From contig CAMAZB010000004.1 of NCBI GenBank assembly GCA_945862785.1, positions 1-42,363 of the forward strand: a stretch of DNA of 42,363 nt, given 5' to 3'. Positions within the stretch are counted from its first letter, which is position 1. Each line of letters starts with the position of its first letter. Made by a program: the position numbers and the translations under genes. This document shows, piece by piece, positions 308-14,566 of the stretch. Source of the stretch: an uncultured Clostridia bacterium (GTDB lineage Bacteria; Bacillota; Clostridia; Oscillospirales; Oscillospiraceae). The notes below the pieces were generated by a model that searched no databases, was not told the DNA's origin, and saw only the letters and a list, made by a program, of their open reading frames with translations.

Positions 308-1504
308 TTAGTAGCACTTGCGATAGATGGCCTCTTCGGACTCCAGATCGAAGGGATAGTAGGCGTTGGTCATCAGGCGCTGCTGGTTGGCCTCCACGGA
401 CTGGGGGAAGGCCTTGAAGTCGGCCTCGGTGAAGCCGCAGTCACGCAGGGGACGCAGGGGCAGGATGCGTTGCAGCAGGGCATTCATCTCGGGGATGGCG
501 TTCTTGGCCTCGCAGCCCAGGATACTGGCAACCAGCTCCTTGAAGCGCATGATCTCGCCGTCGGGGTTCTTCTCATCATAGTAGTCCATGATGGCGCCGA
601 ACAGCATGTAGTTGGACTCGCCGTGAGGCACATGATAGGTGCCGCCCAGGGGGAAGCTCATGCCGTGGACAGGGCCGCAGCCAGCCTTCAGGAAGGCGAT
701 GCCGGCATAGAAGGAAGCGGTGACGAACTGCTCCATGTACTCGAAGCGGGCGTCGGGACCTTTCTCGTCCAGCAGCTTAAAGCCCTTGAGAATCATGTCC
801 ATGGCCTTCTCGCTGAAGAGCTCGCTGGTGATGGTCTTGCGGTGGGGGCTCAGGAAGGACTCGGTGGCGTGCACCAGAGCATCGATGGCGGAGCAGGCGA
901 AGGGCTTGTAGGGCAGGGTGCGCAGCAGGTCGGGGATCAGGCAGACCTTGTTGGGGATGATGTCGTCGGAAACCAGGCCCAGCTTGGTCTCGCCGCCGGT
1001 CAGCACGCCGTCCTTCTCGTCCTTGACGATAGCCACGGAGATGTTGGTGCACTCAGAGCCGGTGCCGCAGGTGGTGGGGATGGCGATAACGTCCTTCTCG
1101 TGGACGACGGGGAAACGCTTGAAGTACAGGTTGTGCACGGTGTCGGGACGCTTGCAGCCCAGCAGCTTGCACAGGTCCATGATGGCGCCACCGCCGACGG
1201 CGATGACACGGTCATAGCTGTCATAGGGGATGGCGTCGTACATGGTCTGGATCATGGCCTCGGAGGGCTCACCGGCGCCGAACTTTTCCTGGAAGACGAA
1301 CTGGCACTTCAGACCCAGCTCCTCCATGAAGGGCTTGTAGATGAACTCGTTGGTCAGAACCACGTCACGGTCGTTCAGCTTGAACTCTTCTGCCATCTGG
1401 GCGAAGGTCTCGAACTTGTACACGGTGGGGGCGAAAATAATCTCGCGCTTATCGGCCATCAGAGAGGCGGAAAAAGCGTCCATTGCTTTAGCCATTGGAA
1501 TCAA
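308..1504 (-). CDS. iron-containing alcohol dehydrogenase (4-hydroxybutyrate dehydrogenase-like)
   Basis: 398 aa with Fe-ADH hallmarks: VGGGAIMDLCK, IPTTCGTGSECT, CSAIDALVHATESFLS, GCGPVHGMSFPLGGTYHVPHGESN. Confidence 0.85.
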   Translation of the reverse strand: MIPMAKAMDAFSASLMADKREIIFAPTVYKFETFAQMAEEFKLNDRDVVLTNEFIYKPFMEELGLKCQFVFQEKFGAGEPSEAMIQTMYDAIPYDSYDRVIAVGGGAIMDLCKLLGCKRPDTVHNLYFKRFPVVHEKDVIAIPTTCGTGSECTNISVAIVKDEKDGVLTGGETKLGLVSDDIIPNKVCLIPDLLRTLPYKPFACSAIDALVHATESFLSPHRKTITSELFSEKAMDMILKGFKLLDEKGPDARFEYMEQFVTASFYAGIAFLKAGCGPVHGMSFPLGGTYHVPHGESNYMLFGAIMDYYDEKNPDGEIMRFKELVASILGCEAKNAIPEMNALLQRILPLRPLRDCGFTEADFKAFPQSVEANQQRLMTNAYYPFDLESEEAIYRKCY

Positions 1505-1570: not shown

Positions 1571-2542
1571 TTACTTACGGGCGACGGCCTTCTTCACGGC
1601 CTCCACGATGTTGGTAGCACGCAGACCGTACACGTCCATCAGGTAGTCCTGAGGACCGACCTGGCCGAACAGATCCTGGACGCCCACGAACTCCTGAACG
1701 GTGGGGCAGTTCTTGGCCAGGCAGTTGGCGACCACGGAGCCCAGACCACAGGTGACGTTGTGGTTCTCGGCGGTGACGATAGCGCCGGTCTCCTTGGCGG
1801 CCTTGATGACCAGCTCCTCGTCCAGGGGCTTCCAGGTGAACATATCGATGACGCGGACATTGATGCCCTCAGCCTGCAGGGCCTCATAGGCCTTCAGGCT
1901 CTCGTCCACCATAATGCCGGAGGTGATGATGGTGGCAACGTCCTTGTCGCTCTCGTGCAGGACAACGCCCTTGCCGATTTCGAACTCGGAGCCCTCGCCG
2001 TAGACCTGGATGATGCCCTTGCGGACGAAGCGGGTGTAGGTCACGCCCTCCACGTTCACCAATTGGCGGGTGATGCTGGCCAGCTGATCATAGTCGGCGG
2101 GGTCCAGCACGGTGGTCTCGGGGATGCTCAGGTACATGGCGGCATCCTCCAGAGGCATATGGGTACCGCCGTTAAAGGCAGCGGTCACACCGGCGTCGGA
2201 GCCCAGCACATGGACAGTCAGACCGGCGTAAGCGGCGGACATGTAGATCTGGTCATAGCAGCGGCGGGAGGAGAAGGTACCGAAGGAATGGTAAAACACC
2301 TTCTTGCCGGTGGCGGCCAGACCGGCGGCCACGCCGGCGCCGTTGGCCTCGGCAATACCGGCCTCAAAAGCGCGGTCGGGATAGTTCTTGCGCAGCATCT
2401 TGGTGTTGATGCAGCCCATCAGGTCGCAGTCCACATAGCAGATGGACTTGTCCTCGGCCATCATCTCGTTCAGGGTCAGAGCAAGACCGTCACGGCAGGC
2501 CCGGGAATCTTTTTTATGCTCACCAATCAGTTTCACGTTCAT
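1571..2542 (-). CDS. transketolase C-terminal subunit (split transketolase)
   Basis: 323 aa, pyrimidine-binding plus C-terminal domains (DCDLMGCINTKML, EAGIAEANGAGVAAGLAATGKKVFYHSFGTF, VTAENHNVTCGLGSVVA). Confidence 0.85.
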   Translation of the reverse strand: MNVKLIGEHKKDSRACRDGLALTLNEMMAEDKSICYVDCDLMGCINTKMLRKNYPDRAFEAGIAEANGAGVAAGLAATGKKVFYHSFGTFSSRRCYDQIYMSAAYAGLTVHVLGSDAGVTAAFNGGTHMPLEDAAMYLSIPETTVLDPADYDQLASITRQLVNVEGVTYTRFVRKGIIQVYGEGSEFEIGKGVVLHESDKDVATIITSGIMVDESLKAYEALQAEGINVRVIDMFTWKPLDEELVIKAAKETGAIVTAENHNVTCGLGSVVANCLAKNCPTVQEFVGVQDLFGQVGPQDYLMDVYGLRATNIVEAVKKAVARK

Positions 2543-2557: not shown

Positions 2558-3391
2558 TTAAGCGTTCTTGGCTTCTTCCAAAGCCTTTTCGGCGGCGGCC
2601 AGAGCCTCGGCCCACTGCTCCTCATTGGGCTGAGAAGAGTGATCGTGCTTGGGCTCGGCGAAAGTGGCGCCCTTGCCCTTGCAGGTGTCCAGAACGATGC
2701 AGCTGGGCACGCCCTTCTTGGCGTAGGCGTTCTGGATGGCATCGTAAATGGCCTTCACATCGTGGCCGTCGATCTCCTGGGTATACAGGCCGAAAGCCTC
2801 AGCCTTCTTGGCCAAGCTGCCATGGGCCAGGATATCGTCGGTGGGGCCGTCCAGCTGATAGCCGTTGTTGTCGATGAAGTAAATGATGTTGTCCAGCTTG
2901 TGGGCATAGGCGAAGTGGAAACCCTCCCAGACCTGGCCCTCGTCAGCCTCACCGTCGCCGATGACGCAGAATACGTGGTTATCACGGCCGTCGATCTTGT
3001 TGCCCAGGGCGGCGCCGGTGGCGGTGGACACGCCCTGGCCCAGGGAGCCGGTGGTCAGATCCACGCCGGGAGTCAGCTTCCGGTCAGTGTGGCTGGGGAA
3101 CTTGGTGCCGGGCTGGTTCAGGGTGTAGGCCTCCTCCAGGGGATAGAAGCCCATCAGGCCGAAGGTGGCGTAAGCCACGGGGCCGGCGTGACCCTTGGAC
3201 AGGACCAGCCAGTCACGGTCCTCCCAGCGGGGATTCTTGGGATCGAATTTCATGACCTCTCCATACAGGACGGCCATCAGGTCGGCCAGATCCATGGAGC
3301 CGCCCACATGGCCGAAACCACGGGAGTGGATGACCTTCAGGGTCTCCAGCCGGATCTCGGCCGCCAGAACTTTGCACTTCTTCTCGTTCAT
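2558..3391 (-). CDS. transketolase N-terminal subunit (ThDP-binding)
   Basis: 277 aa; GHVGGSMDLADLMAVLY, SKGHAGPVAYA, GSLGQGVSTATGAALG, ThDP motif GDGEADEGQVWE...DNNGYQLDG. Confidence 0.9.
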   Translation of the reverse strand: MNEKKCKVLAAEIRLETLKVIHSRGFGHVGGSMDLADLMAVLYGEVMKFDPKNPRWEDRDWLVLSKGHAGPVAYATFGLMGFYPLEEAYTLNQPGTKFPSHTDRKLTPGVDLTTGSLGQGVSTATGAALGNKIDGRDNHVFCVIGDGEADEGQVWEGFHFAYAHKLDNIIYFIDNNGYQLDGPTDDILAHGSLAKKAEAFGLYTQEIDGHDVKAIYDAIQNAYAKKGVPSCIVLDTCKGKGATFAEPKHDHSSQPNEEQWAEALAAAEKALEEAKNA

Positions 3392-3725: not shown

Positions 3726-5294
3726 TCATTCGTACTGAGTGCCGACACCCTCGACCATGGCGTCATAAGCACGCTTGACCTTGTCGTAGTTCTTGTCGCG
3801 ATCCAGGACCACGCCGCGGCCCACGCCGTCCACAATACGGCCGAGACCGATCTCGTCCAGCTTGGCGTCCAGCTCAGCCAGCAGGGTGGGAGCAGAGCCG
3901 GGCTCAGTGGAGCGGCCATCGAAGATGATGTGGAAGTAGACCTTGTCCAGGCCGGCTTCCTTAGCCATCTCGCAGACGGAGATGGGATAGTCGATACAGC
4001 CGTGGGAGGACTTGTAGGTCAGGTAGGCCAGCAGGTGCAGAGCGGTGCCGTTCTTCTTGGCGTGCTCAATGGCCTGCAGGAAGATGGGGTTCTTCTTGAA
4101 GCTGCCGTCCTTCACGGCGGCGTCCAGACGGACATCGTCCTGCATCACGCAGCGGCCGGCGCCCAGGTTGGAGTGACCGGCCTCGGAGTTACCGGCCTTG
4201 CCGGCGCCCAGGCCCACAAACTCACCGGAGGCATGGAGTTTGCTCCAGGACTGCTCGGCCAGCAGGGAATCCCAGTAGGGGGTATCGGCCACATGGATGG
4301 CGTCGTTCTCGTCACCGGTGCCCAGGCCCCAGCCGTCGCAGATGATGAGCAGCATCTTGCGGTCCTTGCCCCAATCCTTGCCCTCGACCAGGGAACGGCC
4401 AGACATCTCGGCGGGCTGAGGAATGCCCATGACGTTCAGCACGGTGGGAGCCACATCGCCCAGGCAGCCGTCCCGCAGGGTGATGGGGGAGTTGTCGGCG
4501 GGGTCGATCATGATGAAGGGGACCAGGTTGGTGGTATGGGCGCCGTCGGGCTTACCAGCAGCGGTGTACAGCTTTTCGATGTTGCCGTGGTCGGCGGTGA
4601 TGGCCACCACATAGCCCTTGTTCAGGGCATCGTGGACCACAACATCCAGGTAGTGGCTGACATGGCCGCAAGCCTGGATCTTGGCGGCGGTGTTTTGGGT
4701 GTGGCCGATGACGTCGCCGTTGGCGAAGTTGGTGACCACGAAGTCATACTTGCCCAGGGCATCCATCACAGTGTCCGCCACCTTGGGCAGAGACAGCTCG
4801 GGCTTCTGGTCAAAGTCGATGCCCTTGGGGGAGGGGATGCACACATCGTCCTCACCGGGGAAAGCGTTGTTCTCGCCGCCGTTGAAGAAGAAGGTCACGT
4901 GGGCGAACTTCTCGCTCTCGGCGCAGTGGAACTGCTTTTTGCCGGCTTCGCTGAGAACCTGGGCCAGGGGCTTTACCACCTTGGCGGGAGCGAAGGCGAT
5001 GGGCAGGTTTTTGAACTTGTCATGGTACATGGTCATGATGACGAAGTCCAGATCGTTCAGCTTCCGGCGCTCCACCTTGTCGAAGGGATCGTCGGTGAAC
5101 ATTTCAGTCAGCTCGATCTCACGCTCGCCGCGACGGCAGCAGAACACCACGGAATCGCCATCGGCGATCTTGCCCACGGGCTTGCCGTCCTCCACCAGGA
5201 GCATAGGCTCCAGATGATAGTCGTCCTGCCCCAGTTCATATGCTCTCTTGACGGCTTCTGCCAGTTGGGCGCCGCCGCGCTTGATATCAGACAT
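3726..5294 (-). CDS. circularly permuted cofactor-independent phosphoglycerate mutase (iPGM)-like protein
   Basis: 522 aa single ORF with good SD (AGGAGG). C-terminal iPGM motifs come first (DGDSVVFCCRRGER, ESEKFAHVTFFFNGG, IPSPKG, NFANGDVIGHT, ITADHGN, GAHTTN), then the canonical N-terminus (KMLLIICDGWG, GNSEAGHSNLGAGR, DGRS, GRGVVLDRDKNYDKVKRAYDAM). Confidence 0.9.
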   Translation of the reverse strand: MSDIKRGGAQLAEAVKRAYELGQDDYHLEPMLLVEDGKPVGKIADGDSVVFCCRRGEREIELTEMFTDDPFDKVERRKLNDLDFVIMTMYHDKFKNLPIAFAPAKVVKPLAQVLSEAGKKQFHCAESEKFAHVTFFFNGGENNAFPGEDDVCIPSPKGIDFDQKPELSLPKVADTVMDALGKYDFVVTNFANGDVIGHTQNTAAKIQACGHVSHYLDVVVHDALNKGYVVAITADHGNIEKLYTAAGKPDGAHTTNLVPFIMIDPADNSPITLRDGCLGDVAPTVLNVMGIPQPAEMSGRSLVEGKDWGKDRKMLLIICDGWGLGTGDENDAIHVADTPYWDSLLAEQSWSKLHASGEFVGLGAGKAGNSEAGHSNLGAGRCVMQDDVRLDAAVKDGSFKKNPIFLQAIEHAKKNGTALHLLAYLTYKSSHGCIDYPISVCEMAKEAGLDKVYFHIIFDGRSTEPGSAPTLLAELDAKLDEIGLGRIVDGVGRGVVLDRDKNYDKVKRAYDAMVEGVGTQYE

Positions 5295-5318: not shown

Positions 5319-6095
5319 TTACTGCCCGTCGGAGGGCGGAATGAGCTTATCCACAGCCACCTGGCCGCAGGCGGGGAAGATATCCAGCAGCTGGGGGAAG
5401 GTGTAGATTTTGGCGCTGGGCATATTCTCCTCGGTGAGCTTGAGGGGCTTGTTTTTGTTGTACTGGACGGCCACGGTCATGCCGAAGTCCACGGCCTTGG
5501 CACCCACGATATCGCGGTTGAGGTTGTCGCCCACATAGCAGCAGTTCTCCGGCTGGGCGCCCACTTCCTCCATGGCGTAGTAGTAGATGGCGGGGCCGGG
5601 CTTACGGATATAGGTGATGGAGGACTGCTGGACGGTCTTGAAGTAGGGGCGCAGACCGTCGTTGTCCAGCCATTCGTCCACTTCGCGCTTGCCCACCAGG
5701 TCGCTGATGATGCCCAGGGTGTAGCCGCGCTTGCACAGCTCCTTGACGGTCTCGGCACCGCCCTCTACCACGGTGCGGCGCCCCTTGGTCTGCCGATACT
5801 GGTAAGTCAGCTCGGCGGCGTTCTTCAGAATGCGCTCCCGGTCCATGTCGTAGGCCAGCCAGCGGGTCCACAGGACCTCCTCGGGAGCTTCGCACATGAA
5901 CTTCAGCGCCCACTCACGGTACTTGTCGTACCGCTTGTCGATGACTTCATCGAACCACTTGTTGGGGTCGTCGGTCTCCACGCCGCACAGCTCGGCGATC
6001 TTGGCCCGGGCGGCGGAGAGGTAGGCGGGATCCTCATCGATGACGCGGAAGGTACCGCCCAGATCCAGGAAAATATAACGGATATCAGTATTCAT
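5319..6095 (-). CDS. HAD-family hydrolase paralogue 1
   Basis: FLDLGGTF (motif I), GIISDL, YIRKPGPAIY (motif III Lys), VGDNLNRDIVGAKA (motif IV). Confidence 0.85.
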   Translation of the reverse strand: MNTDIRYIFLDLGGTFRVIDEDPAYLSAARAKIAELCGVETDDPNKWFDEVIDKRYDKYREWALKFMCEAPEEVLWTRWLAYDMDRERILKNAAELTYQYRQTKGRRTVVEGGAETVKELCKRGYTLGIISDLVGKREVDEWLDNDGLRPYFKTVQQSSITYIRKPGPAIYYYAMEEVGAQPENCCYVGDNLNRDIVGAKAVDFGMTVAVQYNKNKPLKLTEENMPSAKIYTFPQLLDIFPACGQVAVDKLIPPSDGQ

Positions 6096-6157
6096 TTCTA
6101 TGACCTCCAGAACGCAGGACGCGCCCGGGGCAGCCCCGGACGTCCTGCAAAATTAAT

Positions 6158-6892
6158 TTAGTTCAGGGGCGGCAGCAGATCCAGGATCTCACGGAAATCC
6201 TGGATGATCGCATCAGGACGGTTTTCCTCTGTGAACTCCACGGCATGCTTCTTCTCAGGAGACTCGAAGATGATGTTGCAGCCCACACCGGCCTTCTTGG
6301 CGCCGGGGATGTCACGCTTGACATTGTCGGCCACGGACACGCAGTCCGCCAGTTCCACGCCCATTTCCTTGGCGCAGAGCTGATAGATCTCAAAGCCGGG
6401 CTTGCGCAGGTGGCAGACGGAGGAGAGGATAACGGAGTCGAAGTATTTGTCCAGACCGTCCTCTTCCAGCCAGTCGGGAACCTCGTTCTCGCCGATCAAA
6501 TTGGAGATAATGCCCAGCTTGTAGCCCCGTTCGTGGAGACCCTTGATGACCTCCACACCGCCGTCCACGACGACGCGGCGGCCCTTGGTCTGACGATACT
6601 GGAAGCTCAGTTCGTGGCAGACCTGCTTGATGCGGACCGGGTCATAGTCGGGCAGCAGCCACTTGCACCACAGTTCCTCGTCACCGGATTCCTTGAACTC
6701 GCTCAAAGCCCACTTGCGGTAGGGCTCATAGCGATCCTCAATCATCTGGAAAAATTCCTCGTAGGGCATATCGGTGCCGGCAATCTCCGCCATCTTACGG
6801 CGGGCGTGTTTCATATAGGGTTCATCCATCAGGGCGATGCGAAGCGTGCCGCCCAGGTCAAAGAATACTGCTTTGTAACGCTTGTTATCCAT
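6158..6892 (-). CDS. HAD-family hydrolase paralogue 2
   Basis: FFDLGGTL, GIISNL, LRKPGFEIYQL, VADNVKRDIPGAKKAG. Confidence 0.85.
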   Translation of the reverse strand: MDNKRYKAVFFDLGGTLRIALMDEPYMKHARRKMAEIAGTDMPYEEFFQMIEDRYEPYRKWALSEFKESGDEELWCKWLLPDYDPVRIKQVCHELSFQYRQTKGRRVVVDGGVEVIKGLHERGYKLGIISNLIGENEVPDWLEEDGLDKYFDSVILSSVCHLRKPGFEIYQLCAKEMGVELADCVSVADNVKRDIPGAKKAGVGCNIIFESPEKKHAVEFTEENRPDAIIQDFREILDLLPPLN

Positions 6893-6923
6893 GGGTAGAA
6901 ACCTCCTGTTTCTTGATTACCGC

Positions 6924-7655
6924 TCAGACGCGGGTGGGGAAGAGGTCCAGCAGATCGCTGAGATTCTCGATGAGGTAGTCACAGGCCGCGCGCATGGTTT
7001 CCGTCCGGCCCTTCTTGGGGTCGTCAATGAGAATCATGCAGCCGAAGCCGGCGGCACGGGTGCCCTCCACGTCCCGGTCGGGGTTATCGCCGATGTAAGC
7101 GCAGCCAGCCTCCGGGGTGCCGCAGCAGCGGCAGGCCAGGTGATAGATGGCGGGGTCGGGCTTCCGCAGCCGCACCTTGGAGGAGAGAATGGTAGTGGTG
7201 AAGCAGTGGGAGATACCCTCCTCGATCATCCAGTCGGTGATCTCCGACTCCGTGATGGTGTTGGCGATGATGCCCAGCTTGTAGCCCCGGCGGTAAAGCT
7301 CCTCGATGGTGTCCACGGTGTCGAACCGGGTCAGGCGCTTGCCGTTGGTGCCGTCTCGCCAAAGAGTGGTCAGCTCCTGGGCGTGGGCGGCCACATACTC
7401 ACCGTCCACATCCGGCAGCATAATCTGCTGCCAGAACTCAATCTCGGGATAATCCAGCAGAGCAACCTTGGAGACTTCCCGGTAGGCGTCATAGCGGCCC
7501 TTCAGCTTCTTGTAAAAGACCTCCGGGTCCTCGTCGCTCTTTGCCATCTCCGCCAGTTTCCGGCGGCCCTCCGCAATGAACGCGGGATTCTTGTCCGTTA
7601 CCCGCAGCGTGCTGCCGATGTCGAAAAAGATGGTTTGAATATCAGACTGTGCCAT
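6924..7655 (-). CDS. HAD-family hydrolase paralogue 3
   Basis: FFDIGSTL, GIIANT, LRKPDPAIYHLACRCCG, IGDNPDRDVEGTRAAGFG. Confidence 0.85.
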   Translation of the reverse strand: MAQSDIQTIFFDIGSTLRVTDKNPAFIAEGRRKLAEMAKSDEDPEVFYKKLKGRYDAYREVSKVALLDYPEIEFWQQIMLPDVDGEYVAAHAQELTTLWRDGTNGKRLTRFDTVDTIEELYRRGYKLGIIANTITESEITDWMIEEGISHCFTTTILSSKVRLRKPDPAIYHLACRCCGTPEAGCAYIGDNPDRDVEGTRAAGFGCMILIDDPKKGRTETMRAACDYLIENLSDLLDLFPTRV

Positions 7656-7659
7656 TCAA

Positions 7660-8394
7660 TCACCCGCGGGCGGGGAAGATGTCCAGCAGATCACTCAGCT
7701 TGGTAATGACATGATCGGGAGTGAACTCCTTGCCGGTGGCCTTCTCCATGTTCAAGGTGTCGGGCTCATCGATACGGATCATCATGCCGAAGCCGGCGGC
7801 CTGGGTGCCCTCCACATCGCGGACGGGGTTATCGCCGACGTAGGCACAGTTGGCCTCGGGAGTGCCGATGCAGCGGCAGGCCAGGTGATAGATGTCGGGA
7901 TCGGGCTTGCGGAGACGAACCTTGGAGGACAGGATGGTGGTCTTGAAGCACTGGGCCACGCCGTCCGTAGCCATCCAGTCGGGGATCTCGGTCTCAGTGA
8001 CGGTGTTGGCGATGATGCCCAGGGTGTAACCGCGGGCGCACAGCTCCTTCAGGGTAGCTACGGCATCGGGACGGGCCACGCGGCGGCCGTCGTGATCGCG
8101 CCACAGGCGGGTCAGGCGGGCTGCATTGGCGAAGATCATGTTGGGATCATAGTCAGGCAGCATGAACTGGGTCCACAGCTCGCCCTCAGAAACATCCAGC
8201 AGAGAGGTCTTGGACAGCTTACGGTAGACCTTCCACCGCTCCTCCAGCTTGGCGAACAGCTCGTCATGGGTCTCCTTGGTTTGGATCAGCTCCATCAGGT
8301 CGGCCTCGGCCTTGTCGATGAAGGCCTGGTCCTTTACCACGATGCGGAGAGTGTTGCCAACGTCGAAAAAGATTGTCTTGATGTCGGGAGTCAT
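7660..8394 (-). CDS. HAD-family hydrolase paralogue 4
   Basis: FFDVGNTL, GIIANT, LRKPDPDIYHLACRCIG, VGDNPVRDVEGTQAAGFG; closest to paralogue 3. Confidence 0.85.
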   Translation of the reverse strand: MTPDIKTIFFDVGNTLRIVVKDQAFIDKAEADLMELIQTKETHDELFAKLEERWKVYRKLSKTSLLDVSEGELWTQFMLPDYDPNMIFANAARLTRLWRDHDGRRVARPDAVATLKELCARGYTLGIIANTVTETEIPDWMATDGVAQCFKTTILSSKVRLRKPDPDIYHLACRCIGTPEANCAYVGDNPVRDVEGTQAAGFGMMIRIDEPDTLNMEKATGKEFTPDHVITKLSDLLDIFPARG

Positions 8395-8448
8395 ACTGTT
8401 TATCCTCCTTAAAAATATAAATGTCTTGTTTTGTTGATTGTTGATATG

Positions 8449-9204
8449 TCACCGGGCATTGAAAGCGCGGATGATACCGGGGATCTCTGCCAGATCATGG
8501 ATCAGAACATCCGGCGCCAGGCCGGTGCCGGCAAAGGCGGTGTCCCGGTGGGCGATTGATGGGTTGCTGATCTGGATGGAAAGAGCCATGCCGGCGTTGC
8601 GGCACCCCAGTACATCCCGGGAAAGCGTATCGCCCACATAGGCCATTTCGCCGCAGGGAACGCCGCAGGCCGCAGCGGCCTTTTCAAAGATGGCGGCGTC
8701 AGGCTTACGGATGCCGGCAGTGGAGGACAGGATGACACAGCTCATCAGGTCCGCAATGCCGTAGTCCTCCAAAATCCGGGGAACAAAGGTGGTAGAAATA
8801 ATGTTGCTGATGATACCAATTTTCAGCCCTTCCCTGTGGAGAGCGCGGATGGTCTCCCGCATATTGGGCCGGGGGACATTTTGCACCCGGATGGCATCGT
8901 ACATCCAGGACAACTCCTCCGACACAGGCATCAGAAGCTCCTCGCTGAGCTGGAAATCTTTTAAGTAGTATTCACTCCAGATCTTCGCACTGGGAAGTTC
9001 CAGCCGGGTCTGCTCCGACCAGTGCTTGTACGCCTCTGCGTTCTCATGCAGGAGGGGAGCAAGGTTGTCGGCAGTGATGGGGAGCGCGATACCATGGGCG
9101 GAGAGAAGATCCAGCGCCCGCTGACAGAAAGCGGTCTCCAACTCCGGGGTGTGGTGGACCTCGTGAAGTGTGCCGCCCACATCAAAAAGAACTGCGCGAA
9201 TGAT
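8449..9204 (-). CDS. HAD-family hydrolase paralogue 5 (probable non-AUG start)
   Basis: The ORF track starts at GTG 9180, inside motif I. Extending upstream in frame gives (M)IRAVLFDVGGTLHEV from ATC 9204 or ATT 9201 behind SD AGGAGGAG. Motifs GIISNI, IRKPDAAIF, VGDTLSRDVLGCRNAG. Confidence 0.8.
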   Translation of the reverse strand: MIRAVLFDVGGTLHEVHHTPELETAFCQRALDLLSAHGIALPITADNLAPLLHENAEAYKHWSEQTRLELPSAKIWSEYYLKDFQLSEELLMPVSEELSWMYDAIRVQNVPRPNMRETIRALHREGLKIGIISNIISTTFVPRILEDYGIADLMSCVILSSTAGIRKPDAAIFEKAAAACGVPCGEMAYVGDTLSRDVLGCRNAGMALSIQISNPSIAHRDTAFAGTGLAPDVLIHDLAEIPGIIRAFNAR

Positions 9205-9387: not shown

Positions 9388-9439
9388 TCTAATAAGCAGC
9401 CAAGGGGGGAGTTTTGCCCGTGGCTGCAAAAAATAAAGC

Positions 9440-9451
9440 GGAAACGTTTGC
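9440..9451. promoter_or_regulatory. LacI-type operator O2 (regulator leader)
   Basis: GGAAACGTTTGC palindrome between the promoter and the likely GTG start at 9483. Confidence 0.65.
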
Positions 9452-9482
9452 GATTTTCCGCGGTGTAGAGGAGACGGTACCA

Positions 9483-10487
9483 GTGAAAAGCGTGACTTTG
9501 AAAGACGTCGCAAAAGCGGCGGGAGTCTCCTATGCCACGGTTTCCCGCGCCTTGTCGGGAAGCCCTCAAATCGGCAGCGACACCCGGGAGCGTATCATCA
9601 AGCTTTGCGATGAAATGGGCTATACCACGAATTATGTGGCCCGCTCCATGGTGATGAAGAAGACCGACCTGATCGGCCTGGTGGTGCCCACCATCGACAA
9701 CGCATTCATGTCCGAACTGGCTTTTTACGTCGAGATGAGCGCCCGGGCCCACGGATATAACGTGATGCTGTGCAACTCGGGTCCCGACCTGAAACAGGAG
9801 AAGACGGTGGTCAAGCTGCTGCTGGGCCGCCAGGTGGACGGTATCCTGATCGTCCCCCAGAGCTCCAAGACCTATGAGAATATCCGCGCTTACACAGATC
9901 AGGTGCCCACGGTCTTCATGTCGGAGAACCTGCGTGACCAGCCCCAGAGCTATGTGGCCGCAGACAACACCCGGGGCGCCTACATTGCTACGAAATATCT
10001 TTATGAGCTGGGGCACCGGAACATCCTGTACTTCGGCCGCCGCCACACCACCACTCACCAGCTCCGTGCGGAGGGATACATGAAGGCCTGTCAGGAGCTG
10101 GGCCTCCAGCAGCAGTTCCTGGACAGCGAATATTCCCGCTCCTCCATCGCCAACGGATACGAGATGGCCAGAGATCTGTTTTCCAAACCCATTGATTACA
10201 CCGCTATTTTCGCCTCCACGGATTCCAGTGCCCTAGGTATCCTGCGGGCGGCGGACGAGCGGCACATTGATATCCCCGGCCAAGTCAGCCTGATCGGCTT
10301 TGATAACATTCCCTCCACGGCGCTGCCCCGTATTGAGCTGACTACCATCGACCAGCCAAAGCGGGAGATCGCGATTCAGGCTGTGGATATGCTGCGGGAC
10401 AAGATCGAAAACGGCACGCAGGGCTATGTCCATCAGATCCTGCTGCCTACTCTTGTTAAACGTGGGACCTGCAAGGCATTGGATTGA
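9483..10487 (+). CDS. LacI-family transcriptional regulator
   Basis: VKSVTLKDVAKAAGVSYATVSRALSGSP HTH plus periplasmic-binding-like domain. The ORF track starts at TTG 9414; GTG 9483 preceded by GAGGAGA fits the family start. Confidence 0.9.
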   Translation: MKSVTLKDVAKAAGVSYATVSRALSGSPQIGSDTRERIIKLCDEMGYTTNYVARSMVMKKTDLIGLVVPTIDNAFMSELAFYVEMSARAHGYNVMLCNSGPDLKQEKTVVKLLLGRQVDGILIVPQSSKTYENIRAYTDQVPTVFMSENLRDQPQSYVAADNTRGAYIATKYLYELGHRNILYFGRRHTTTHQLRAEGYMKACQELGLQQQFLDSEYSRSSIANGYEMARDLFSKPIDYTAIFASTDSSALGILRAADERHIDIPGQVSLIGFDNIPSTALPRIELTTIDQPKREIAIQAVDMLRDKIENGTQGYVHQILLPTLVKRGTCKALD

Positions 10488-10551: not shown

Positions 10552-11280
10552 ATGAACGGTTACCTGTATGATCCCCATACCCATACGGCGGAGACCAGCA
10601 AGTGCGGCCACCTGTTTGCTGCCGAGGTAGTGGACCGCTATGTGCGCAACGGTTTTTCCGGCCTGGTGGTTACCGACCACCTTCATCCCGAGTACCTGTC
10701 CCGGATCGATACCCAGCACAACTGGGATATGGTCATGGACCACTACCTGACCGGCTACCATGCTTCCAAGAAGCGGGGCGACGAAGTGGGCCTGGATGTC
10801 ATCTTGGGCGCTGAGTTCCGGTTCCCGGAGAACGATAACGACTATCTGGTTTACGGCATCGACGAGCAGTGGCTCCGTTCCAACCCGTACGCCTGCTGTA
10901 TGAGCGCCCAGGAGTTTTATGACAAGTACCATAACGAGGTGCTTATCATCCACGCTCATCCGTTCCGGAAGGGCAGCGCTCCGGTCCAGGAGACTGCTAT
11001 CCATGGTGCGGAGATCATCAACGACAATCCTCGCCATGAGAACAACAACGACAAAGCGCTGGCCATGTGCCGCCGCCATCCCGAATATTACCGCCTGGCG
11101 GGCTCTGATACCCACCGGAACGGCGATGAGGCCCGTGCGGGCGTCATTCTGCCGGAACGGGTTAAGGATTCCCGCGCCTACAAGCATATGATCGAAACGC
11201 TGCAATTCCAGCTGTGGTGTCCGGAGTTCCCCGAAGTTCTGGAGGCCGACGCTGAGATGCGAAAGGAGAATAACAAATGA
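10552..11280 (+). CDS. PHP-domain protein (putative metal-dependent phosphoesterase)
   Basis: YDPHTHTAETSKCGH, VVTDHLHPEY, IIHAHPFR, GSDTHRNGD. Confidence 0.85.
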   Translation: MNGYLYDPHTHTAETSKCGHLFAAEVVDRYVRNGFSGLVVTDHLHPEYLSRIDTQHNWDMVMDHYLTGYHASKKRGDEVGLDVILGAEFRFPENDNDYLVYGIDEQWLRSNPYACCMSAQEFYDKYHNEVLIIHAHPFRKGSAPVQETAIHGAEIINDNPRHENNNDKALAMCRRHPEYYRLAGSDTHRNGDEARAGVILPERVKDSRAYKHMIETLQFQLWCPEFPEVLEADAEMRKENNK

Positions 11281-12161
11281 GCCAGTTTGAATCCCTTATT
11301 ATCGGCGAGATCGCGGAAGATACTAATGTAGACTATGACGGTACTACCATCCAGGCCATCGGCGGCGCGGTGTATTACTCCGGATTTGCCGCAGCCAACA
11401 TCGGCCACAAAATCGCGGTGCTGCCCAAGGCGGACACCACGAAGGTGGACCTGAAGGCCGCTTTCGCCAAGGCTCCCAACATCACCGTGTTCCCCGTCCA
11501 CAGCACCCATTCCTTTGTCACTAAGAACGTTTATCACACCCCTGACCGGGAGCGCCGCACCTCCACTGTGGACAGCGTGATTGACCCCTACAAGCCCTGC
11601 GAGGTCCCGGAGGAGATCGACGCTAAGATCTGGCATCTGGCCGGCCTGGTGGGCGGTGATATCCCCGATGAGATGATCCCCTATGCTGTGTCCCGGGGCG
11701 CCATGGTGGCCGTGGATGTGCAGACCATGCTGCGCTGGGCCGAGAACGGCGGCATGGTGTACCATGACTGGGCTGCCAAGAAGGAAATGCTGCCCTACAT
11801 CCGCTTCCTCAAGACCGACGCCGCCGAGGCGGAGATTCTGACCGGCACCGACGACCGGGTGGCCGCCGCCAAGATGCTGTACGACTGGGGCGCCAAGGAG
11901 ATCCTCATCACCCACAACAGCGAAGTCCTGGTCTACGACGGCAAGGAGATCTACACCTGCCCCATCAAGGCCCGGAACCTATCCGGACGTACCGGCCGGG
12001 GTGATACCACCTTCGCATGCTACATCAACGAGCGTCTGACCAAGGATATCCCCACCTCCCTCAAGACCGCCACGGCGCTGGTGTCCCTGAAGATGGAGAC
12101 TCCCGGCCCCTACATGGGTACCCGTGAGGACCTGGACGCCTATATGATGGAGTTTTTCTGA
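11277..12161 (+). CDS. PfkB-family carbohydrate kinase
   Basis: IGGAVYYSGFAAANIGHKIAVLPK; C-terminal SGRTGRGDTTFACYIN active-site region (GxGD). Overlaps the PHP gene by 4 nt (ATGA). Confidence 0.8.
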   Translation: MSQFESLIIGEIAEDTNVDYDGTTIQAIGGAVYYSGFAAANIGHKIAVLPKADTTKVDLKAAFAKAPNITVFPVHSTHSFVTKNVYHTPDRERRTSTVDSVIDPYKPCEVPEEIDAKIWHLAGLVGGDIPDEMIPYAVSRGAMVAVDVQTMLRWAENGGMVYHDWAAKKEMLPYIRFLKTDAAEAEILTGTDDRVAAAKMLYDWGAKEILITHNSEVLVYDGKEIYTCPIKARNLSGRTGRGDTTFACYINERLTKDIPTSLKTATALVSLKMETPGPYMGTREDLDAYMMEFF

Positions 12162-12825: not shown

Positions 12826-13437
12826 TCAGAGCTTGACCACGATATCCAGCAGGATGTCGGCGCTGAAATCGCCCTTGTCCGCGGCGTGGTTCATGTGATT
12901 GTAGATCTCACGGTATTTCAGAATCTTCTTGATGTCATCGGCCTCAAACAGCTCCGCAATAGACTGATGGAACTGGACATTCAAAGCATTTTCCAGCTTC
13001 TTGACCTTGGTGGCCTCCACGGCAACACCGGCATGGTCCTTCTCCAGCTTCTGCATGCACACCAGCAAGCCGTCCGCCATCTGAAGCAGCGTCCGGGCCA
13101 TGGCCAGCAAATGATCGTCGGGCGTGATATCGTAGATACGGGCTTCCTTCACCGTGGTCCAGGCGTAATCAGCCAGATCATCGATGGAGGTAGAGAGACG
13201 GTACAGGTCGTCCCGGTCAATGGGAGTGATGAAAGTACGGTTGATATCGTCCACCAGTTCCCGGCGAATATCGTCCGCTTCCTTTTCCTTGACCTTGACG
13301 AAATCACCCTTTTCCTGGGTGGGATCCTCACAGAAAGCGCAAAGGGCTTCCACAGCGTCGCGAATGACCTGTGCCTGCCGAATCAAAAGAGCGTAGAAAT
13401 TGAGACTTTCTTTCCGTTTAAACATCGTGTAACGCAC
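12826..13437 (-). CDS. DUF47/PhoU-like phosphate transport regulator
   Basis: 203 aa; coiled helical DUF47 features (KVKEKEADDIRRELVDDINRTFITPIDRDDLYRLSTSIDDLADY); next to a Pit transporter. Confidence 0.85.
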   Translation of the reverse strand: MRYTMFKRKESLNFYALLIRQAQVIRDAVEALCAFCEDPTQEKGDFVKVKEKEADDIRRELVDDINRTFITPIDRDDLYRLSTSIDDLADYAWTTVKEARIYDITPDDHLLAMARTLLQMADGLLVCMQKLEKDHAGVAVEATKVKKLENALNVQFHQSIAELFEADDIKKILKYREIYNHMNHAADKGDFSADILLDIVVKL

Positions 13438-13444
13438 CTCTTTG

Positions 13445-14458
13445 TCAGAAAATCATAGCGAATACGAAGTATAGGATGGCACCCAGCGTGCCGGCGATGG
13501 GAATGGTAATGAACCAGGAGGTCAGGATTTTGCCCGCCACGTTCCAGTGTACGGCCTTGTACCGCTCAGCAGAACCGACGCCCATGATGGAAGAGGAGAC
13601 GATCTGGCTGGCGGATACGGGAGCGCCCAACATAGAAGCGGACAGGATCACCGCACCGGCGGTGAGCTGAGAGGCAAAAGAGTGAATGGGCTGCACCTTG
13701 TAGATGCCGGTGCCCACGGTCTTGATGATCTTGAAGCCGCCGAAAGCGATGCCGCAGGACAGGCACAGCGCGGCGCAGGCGATGGCCCACACAGGGATGG
13801 AATCCACATTGCCACCGTAGATGCCTAGCAGGATCATCACAATACCGATGGATTTTTGGGAGTCGTTGAAGGAGTGGTTAAAGGCAAGGAAGGTCATATT
13901 GAACCACTGTGCATAGGTAAAAAATTTGTTGATGCCTACACTTGCGTGCCGCGTCAGCAGCAGGAGGAGCTTTAGGATCAGAAAGCCTACCACGAAGCTG
14001 ATAGCGGGAGTCAGGAAGATCATCAGCACCACGCGACCCCAGAAGTAGCCCCAGGAGATTGCTTTAGTGCCGAAAGCTGCGAGGCCAGCTCCTACCACGC
14101 CGCCGATCAGCGCGTGGGAAGAGGAGGCGGGGATCCCGAATCGCCAGGTCGTAATGTTCCACAGGATCGCGGCCAGGATCCCCGCCGTAATGAAAGCGAG
14201 CGCAGTGCTACGCGCGCTTGGGTCGGTGTAGAAAGCCTCACCGACCAACTTCTTGATGGTATCGGATACACTGGAGCCGACTACCAGCATCGCAAAGGGG
14301 GAGAGAACCTCCACGACGGCAGCCCAGGCCAGCGCCGGGTACGGTTTCATGGAGCGGCTGGCGATCAGGGTGGCGACAACATTGCACCCATCGTGAAAGC
14401 CGTTCACATATGTAAATACAAAGACCAATGCGGTCAGTATCCAGAAGGACGGTGCCAT
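13445..14458 (-). CDS. Pit-family inorganic phosphate transporter
   Basis: VNGFHDGCNVVATLIASRSM, SSSHALIGGVVGAG, multiple TMs. The ORF track starts at 14566 but ATG 14458 (MAPSFWILTAL) fits the TM topology and lies downstream of the predicted promoter. Confidence 0.85.
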   Translation of the reverse strand: MAPSFWILTALVFVFTYVNGFHDGCNVVATLIASRSMKPYPALAWAAVVEVLSPFAMLVVGSSVSDTIKKLVGEAFYTDPSARSTALAFITAGILAAILWNITTWRFGIPASSSHALIGGVVGAGLAAFGTKAISWGYFWGRVVLMIFLTPAISFVVGFLILKLLLLLTRHASVGINKFFTYAQWFNMTFLAFNHSFNDSQKSIGIVMILLGIYGGNVDSIPVWAIACAALCLSCGIAFGGFKIIKTVGTGIYKVQPIHSFASQLTAGAVILSASMLGAPVSASQIVSSSIMGVGSAERYKAVHWNVAGKILTSWFITIPIAGTLGAILYFVFAMIF

Positions 14459-14505
14459 AGGTACTTTTACACATCCCTTCCAAAAGATAAAATTGTGCCG
14501 ATTAC

Positions 14506-14517
14506 GCAAACGTTTTC
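14506..14517. promoter_or_regulatory. LacI-type operator O3 (Pit leader)
   Basis: GCAAACGTTTTC, same core as O1/O2. Confidence 0.6.
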
Positions 14518-14566
14518 GAAAAAGGCGGAAATAAAAACCCAGGGGGTTTTCCCTTGAGATGTACAT

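Follow-up and report, generated by a model that had tools for sequence, protein, structure and literature searches.

The question raised by this locus is what a protein is, and what it does, when it carries the motifs of a phosphoglycerate mutase (PGM) of the GpmI/iPGM type in exchanged order within one open reading frame (ORF). The frame lies in the window, by which we mean the whole analyzed stretch of 42,363 nucleotides from an uncultured Clostridia bacterium of the family Oscillospiraceae. A preliminary description of this DNA proposed that the 522-amino-acid (aa) product is a functional circular permutant in which the natural termini are fused and new termini open within the transferase domain, and the motifs it quoted are present in the order it gave. 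We refer to the protein as cpPGM.

Results

The gene, which starts with an ATG preceded by an AGGAGG ribosome-binding site, is divided as follows.

3726..5294, minus strand: cpPGM, circularly permuted iPGM-fold protein, 522 aa
4386..5294, minus strand: aa 1-303, corresponding to the C-terminal ~290 iPGM residues (phmmer and residue mapping)
4359..4385, minus strand: linker EGKDWGKDR, aa 304-312, joining the old C and N termini (between the phmmer stretches)
3729..4358, minus strand: aa 313-522, corresponding to the N-terminal ~210 iPGM residues (phmmer and residue mapping)

A phmmer comparison with the Bacillus stearothermophilus iPGM (1EJJ) placed residues 313 to 521 of the query on chain positions 5 to 213 and residues 13 to 303 on positions 218 to 509, two stretches that do not overlap and stand in swapped order. 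The first part of cpPGM comprises the rest of the transferase domain and the metal-binding phosphatase domain (D194/H198, D235/H236, and H253), while the N-terminal-equivalent part carries D320, the nucleophile S370, H431, R461, S462 (the Asp154 position), R493, and R499. Homology to GpmI/iPGM extends over both domains, but the GpmI order, with the N-terminal part (DGWG and the Ser) ahead of the C-terminal part (DHGN and AHTTN), is reversed within the single ORF. Pfam places Metalloenzyme (aa 103-292, best stretch) before iPGM_N (aa 391-519), whereas in the normal order iPGM_N comes first; TIGR01307 scores 467.8 bits in two stretches (cut-off, 330.65), and NF003897 scores 383.6 (cut-off, 862). 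In its native order, cpPGM aligns with canonical GpmI as two half matches, while a rotated query (aa 314-522, then 1-304) gives a single collinear alignment over the whole length, with matches at an E value of ≤1e-80 in 346 of 399 Bacillota genomes (best identity, 41 to 44%; E values down to 1e-127). Because the halves match 1EJJ in swapped order and the rotated copy aligns collinearly, it is essentially certain from the alignments that ORF 3726-5294 is a circular permutant of iPGM. The fused termini and the full-length match after rotation anticipated in the preliminary description were thus recovered, and the new termini lie inside the transferase domain as it had claimed, between the equivalents of residues ~213 and ~218 (B. 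stearothermophilus numbering). Its linker is present near the place it named, although the exact span is 4359 to 4385 and not 4356 to 4388.

The AlphaFold2 model of cpPGM, built with 27 permuted sequences, has a mean pLDDT of 91.5 and a pTM of 0.82. All 22 significant Foldseek matches in the PDB (E ≤ 0.001) are iPGMs, most of them over ~300 of the 522 residues, as would be expected of a permutant in a sequential alignment.

Approximately 70 further permuted homologues were identified among the genome_contigs loci, in Bacillota, Synergistota, Spirochaetota, and Chloroflexota, several of them from isolates. Carriers include Oscillibacter/Dysosmobacter, other Oscillospiraceae, Lachnospiraceae, Christensenella, one Sphaerochaetaceae bacterium, two Chloroflexi, and Acetomicrobium hydrogeniformans, and the fused order is found in Oscillibacter valericigenes An860 and An890, Oscillibacter sp. 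1-3, and A. hydrogeniformans ATCC BAA-1850. Within the family, 4 of 201 sampled genomes (the window's own genome counted) have a permuted homologue, and within the genus, 34 of 86 do (fragments counted); the patchy spread of cpPGM suggests horizontal transfer. A tree combining 31 rotated permutants with 23 canonical sequences separates the two classes by a branch supported at 100/100, a topology consistent with a single permutation event. Circular permutants are generally known to arise through tandem duplication and fusion; cpPGM was probably made in this way, with the outer halves subsequently lost, and no intermediate of such a route was seen. No unpermuted sister with the same pocket was seen among the 399 Bacillota genomes, in which the best canonical matches are 41 to 44% identical to the rotated query. 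A viral origin was also considered and rejected, with no viral relative of cpPGM found in a scan of viral_contigs.

Active-site residues were mapped in 1EJJ numbering across permutants and canonical sequences. The two-metal site and nucleophile (D12, S62, D403, H407, D444, H445, and H462) are kept in 72 of 72 permutants, in agreement with the preliminary description, which saw every metal ligand and the nucleophilic Ser preserved. For the substrate site we rely on a residue list that we take from the 1EJJ structure, in which Asp154 presumably contacts the substrate. Eight of these nine residues are conserved in cpPGM, and H123, R153, R185, R191, R261, R264, and K336 are kept in all permutants with data. 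Position 154 is Ser in all 71 permutants with data and Asp in all 30 canonical sequences, and G120K, G121S, V122S, S124G, Y186G, W195Y, N259C, D263E, and A265E are fixed or nearly so in the permutants. Of the 34 fixed class-specific changes, 17 lie no more than five residues from a substrate-binding position, an enrichment over the 10.8 expected (P = 0.010), and 4 lie near metal residues, fewer than the 7.9 expected (P = 0.05). Judged from these residue patterns, cpPGM is a protein of conserved chemistry and rebuilt pocket. The most divergent permutant is that of A. hydrogeniformans, with DHGV in place of DHGN. The metal ligands also agree with those reported for the Caenorhabditis elegans enzyme (PMC5382265).

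A canonical GpmI is encoded elsewhere in the window's genome (contig C56) and is 40 to 42% identical to cpPGM. Within the genus, canonical GpmI matches accompany cpPGM in nearly all carriers; none was found in the genus carriers G227 (80% complete) and G264 (67% complete). Acetomicrobium and one Chloroflexi carrier (L096) possess an archaeal-type PGM (aPGM) instead of GpmI. In a Christensenella metagenome-assembled genome of unestablished completeness (G956), canonical GpmI was not found and the dPGM profile gave only weak hits; its aPGM-profile match is the permutant itself. Because another PGM is present in nearly all carriers, cpPGM does not appear to be the housekeeping enzyme, and glycolytic replacement by cpPGM is ruled out for nearly all of them.

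The genes surrounding cpPGM in the window are listed below.

308..1504, minus strand: Fe-containing alcohol dehydrogenase
1571..2542, minus strand: transketolase C-terminal subunit
2558..3391, minus strand: transketolase N-terminal subunit, downstream of cpPGM in Oscillibacter-type loci only
5319..6095, minus strand: HAD1, HAD-family hydrolase directly upstream of cpPGM, motif I DLGGT (Pfam HAD; conserved neighbor)
6158..6892, minus strand: HAD2, motif I DLGGT (Pfam HAD; locus conservation)
6924..7655, minus strand: HAD3, motif I DIGST (Pfam HAD)
7660..8394, minus strand: HAD4, motif I DVGNT (Pfam HAD)
8449..9180, minus strand: HAD5, HAD-family hydrolase listed from a GTG, the true start probably lying further upstream (Pfam HAD)
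9414..10487, plus strand: divergent LacI-family regulator (Pfam LacI and Peripla_BP; conserved divergent gene)
10552..11280, plus strand: PHP-domain protein (Pfam match weak at 25.0 bits, below the cut-off of 26.4)
11277..12161, plus strand: PfkB-family kinase related to TM0415 (E = 2.9e-38 to 1VK4)

The cpPGM start lies 24 nucleotides after HAD1 in the window. Most loci share the arrangement of LacI regulator, HADs, and cpPGM, with four to five tandem HADs, and the usual order across the flanks is divergent LacI, HAD5, HAD4, HAD2, HAD1, and cpPGM. HAD3 is limited to part of the Oscillibacter-lineage loci, and Oscillibacter-type loci run on into the split transketolase and the Fe-containing alcohol dehydrogenase. 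Nearly all HADs of these loci have DxG, not DxD, at motif I. In the window (5319 to 9180), all five lack the second Asp of this motif (DxG[GSN]T), and HAD3 and HAD4 have IIAN as motif II, making this an expanded array with unusual catalytic motifs. No HADs of this type of array were found in the examined flanks of the Acetomicrobium (L100) and Sphaerochaetaceae (L095) carriers. Other gene contexts were also observed: a Pit-type phosphate transporter and a PhoU-like partner adjoin the locus in the window (12826 to 14566, minus strand); in the Chloroflexi locus L096 (1413 to 5426), cpPGM is followed by a uridine-kinase-like protein and the aPGM; and in A. hydrogeniformans (L100, 8441 to 12837), a DASS-family transporter, cpPGM, and a beta-CASP-like metallo-hydrolase stand in a row.

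The PfkB-family kinase lies beside or after the operon, and its nearest solved relative is TM0415 (1VK4), described in PMC5931981 as a pyrophosphate-dependent myo-inositol kinase; the inositol-contact and pyrophosphate-signature residues used here are those named in that paper. Such a kinase is found near cpPGM in 49 loci. The inositol contacts D11, N78, Q141, and R145 and the donor residues K171, R229, R232, and M266 are invariant in 49 of 49 locus kinases, so that four of the five signature positions (K171, F221, R229, R232, and M266) are retained, with F221 replaced by Ile or Val. Because of this replacement, the phosphate donor of the locus kinase may be other than pyrophosphate. The kinase is present in 34 of 34 cpPGM-positive versus 8 of 52 cpPGM-negative genomes of the genus, raw counts from one genus that ignore relatedness, and none was found in the divergent Acetomicrobium (L100) and Sphaerochaetaceae (L095) carriers. 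A second copy with 55% identity in the window's genome (G000:C41:11412-12278) adjoins two MgtC-like genes.

Many non-Oscillibacter loci include genes for an ABC importer (fused permease, ATPase, and binding protein), MgtC, and an H+-pyrophosphatase. In the window's genome, the importer is located on contig C21, apart from the cpPGM locus, where the cassette also encodes a putative membrane protein of 195 aa and another HAD of the DxG type (L152, G000:C21, 1 to 5627). For the importer's permease and ATPase, the related systems are those for 2-aminoethylphosphonate, sulfate, and polyamines. The binding protein, encoded at positions 1349 to 2707 of L152, had no NCBIfam model match and no solved structural relative was found, nor was a ligand found from solved relatives.

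Discussion

The altered substrate site, together with the HADs, the inositol-kinase-like enzyme, and the importer around cpPGM, makes a polyol phosphate other than phosphoglycerate the most likely substrate. Our best explanation, which we hold tentatively and at somewhat less than even confidence, is that cpPGM is a once-arisen permutant and a paralogue of its host's own GpmI that has turned to a new substrate, as a phosphomutase or phosphatase of a phosphorylated polyol that the cell imports, for which a cyclitol (inositol) phosphate is the likeliest identity. Ser370 (equivalent to Ser62) would take the phosphate on the two-metal site while the transferase pocket holds the substrate, and the phosphate would be returned to a neighboring hydroxyl; the HAD array and the kinase resembling TM0415 would also process this cyclitol phosphate. 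An inositol phosphate leads the candidates, since a phosphate shift between neighboring hydroxyls, as in the iPGM reaction, suits a ring with vicinal hydroxyls, and the substrate that we infer is perhaps of this kind. Conservation of the ORF in ~70 genomes of four phyla points to a functional gene rather than a pseudogene, as the preliminary description supposed, but the working phosphoglycerate mutase that it implied is weakened by the GpmI of the same genome, the Asp154-to-Ser and other substrate-site changes, and the catabolic-type locus.

The retention of most phosphoglycerate-binding residues counts against a new substrate, and phosphoglycerate or a close analogue is a possible substrate of cpPGM. 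A second, permuted GpmI isoenzyme, belonging to a catabolic locus and feeding phosphoglycerate into glycolysis, would account for the conserved metal ligands and eight of nine substrate-site residues, for a TIGR01307 score above the cut-off, and for the transketolase and Fe-containing alcohol dehydrogenase of Oscillibacter loci, which fit a route into central metabolism. We nevertheless consider it unlikely given D154S and the other fixed pocket changes, the redundancy with the GpmI or aPGM of the same genomes, and a neighborhood of tandem HADs and a gene resembling inositol kinases instead of glycolytic genes. It is equally doubtful that cpPGM is a phosphatase or phosphotransferase of a non-cyclitol sugar phosphate or phosphonate-like compound brought in by the PhnU2/Afu-like importer, with the kinase incidental or acting on another polyol. 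The relatives of the importer permease and ATPase argue for such a substrate, and the tandem HADs and LacI regulator suggest sugar phosphates; AfuABC, once predicted to bind iron, carries hexose and heptose phosphates according to PMC4546632. The invariance of the four inositol-contact residues in every locus kinase stands against it. Finally, although the genome behind the window is a fragmented draft of 189 contigs, an artefact of assembly or annotation or a decaying pseudogene is refuted and practically inconceivable, because the same fused order recurs in many independent assemblies, with ~70 other genomes, isolates included, keeping the order, an intact ORF, and the catalytic residues, and because the structure model is confident; the two adjacent genes or assembly join at 4350 to 4390 that the preliminary description had allowed for are thereby ruled out.

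The cyclitol-phosphate reading can be extended, as a speculation that we judge quite improbable in its full form, to an inositol-phosphate mutase or phosphatase that would shift or remove ring phosphates with the iPGM two-metal/phospho-Ser chemistry, within an undescribed pathway by which gut Oscillospiraceae, Lachnospiraceae, and relatives would import inositol phosphates derived from phytate and break them down intracellularly, using a pyrophosphate-linked kinase and HAD steps. A literature search found no published phytate pathway matching the cpPGM locus. Among open-licence PMC papers it likewise found no permuted iPGM, an absence that is not proof, and the preliminary description had known of none. 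If the locus does degrade inositol phosphates intracellularly, it would bear on the use of dietary phytate by gut bacteria. A permuted enzyme of central metabolism that seems to have been fixed a single time and then maintained in four phyla is also a natural experiment on how a moving two-domain iPGM tolerates new termini, and annotation by TIGR01307 score alone would label it GpmI.

Among known systems, the nearest to cpPGM is GpmI/iPGM, the family of TIGR01307 and of PF06415 plus PF01676, with which it shares the two-domain fold, the seven metal and nucleophile residues, eight of nine substrate-site residues, and ~42% identity after rotation. It differs in that its termini have moved into the transferase domain and the old termini are fused, in D154S among its 34 fixed class-specific changes, and in being rarely if ever the sole PGM and having a dedicated catabolic-type locus. 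The locus kinase resembles TM0415 in the inositol contacts and in K171, R229, R232, and M266 and differs in Ile or Val at F221; PMC5931981 places the TM0415 gene in a myo-inositol catabolic cluster, and the text consulted contained no permuted iPGM. The importer permease and ATPase of related loci belong to the broad superfamily of AfuABC and PhnSTUV-type importers, from which the system is set apart by a binding protein without an NCBIfam or solved-structure match.
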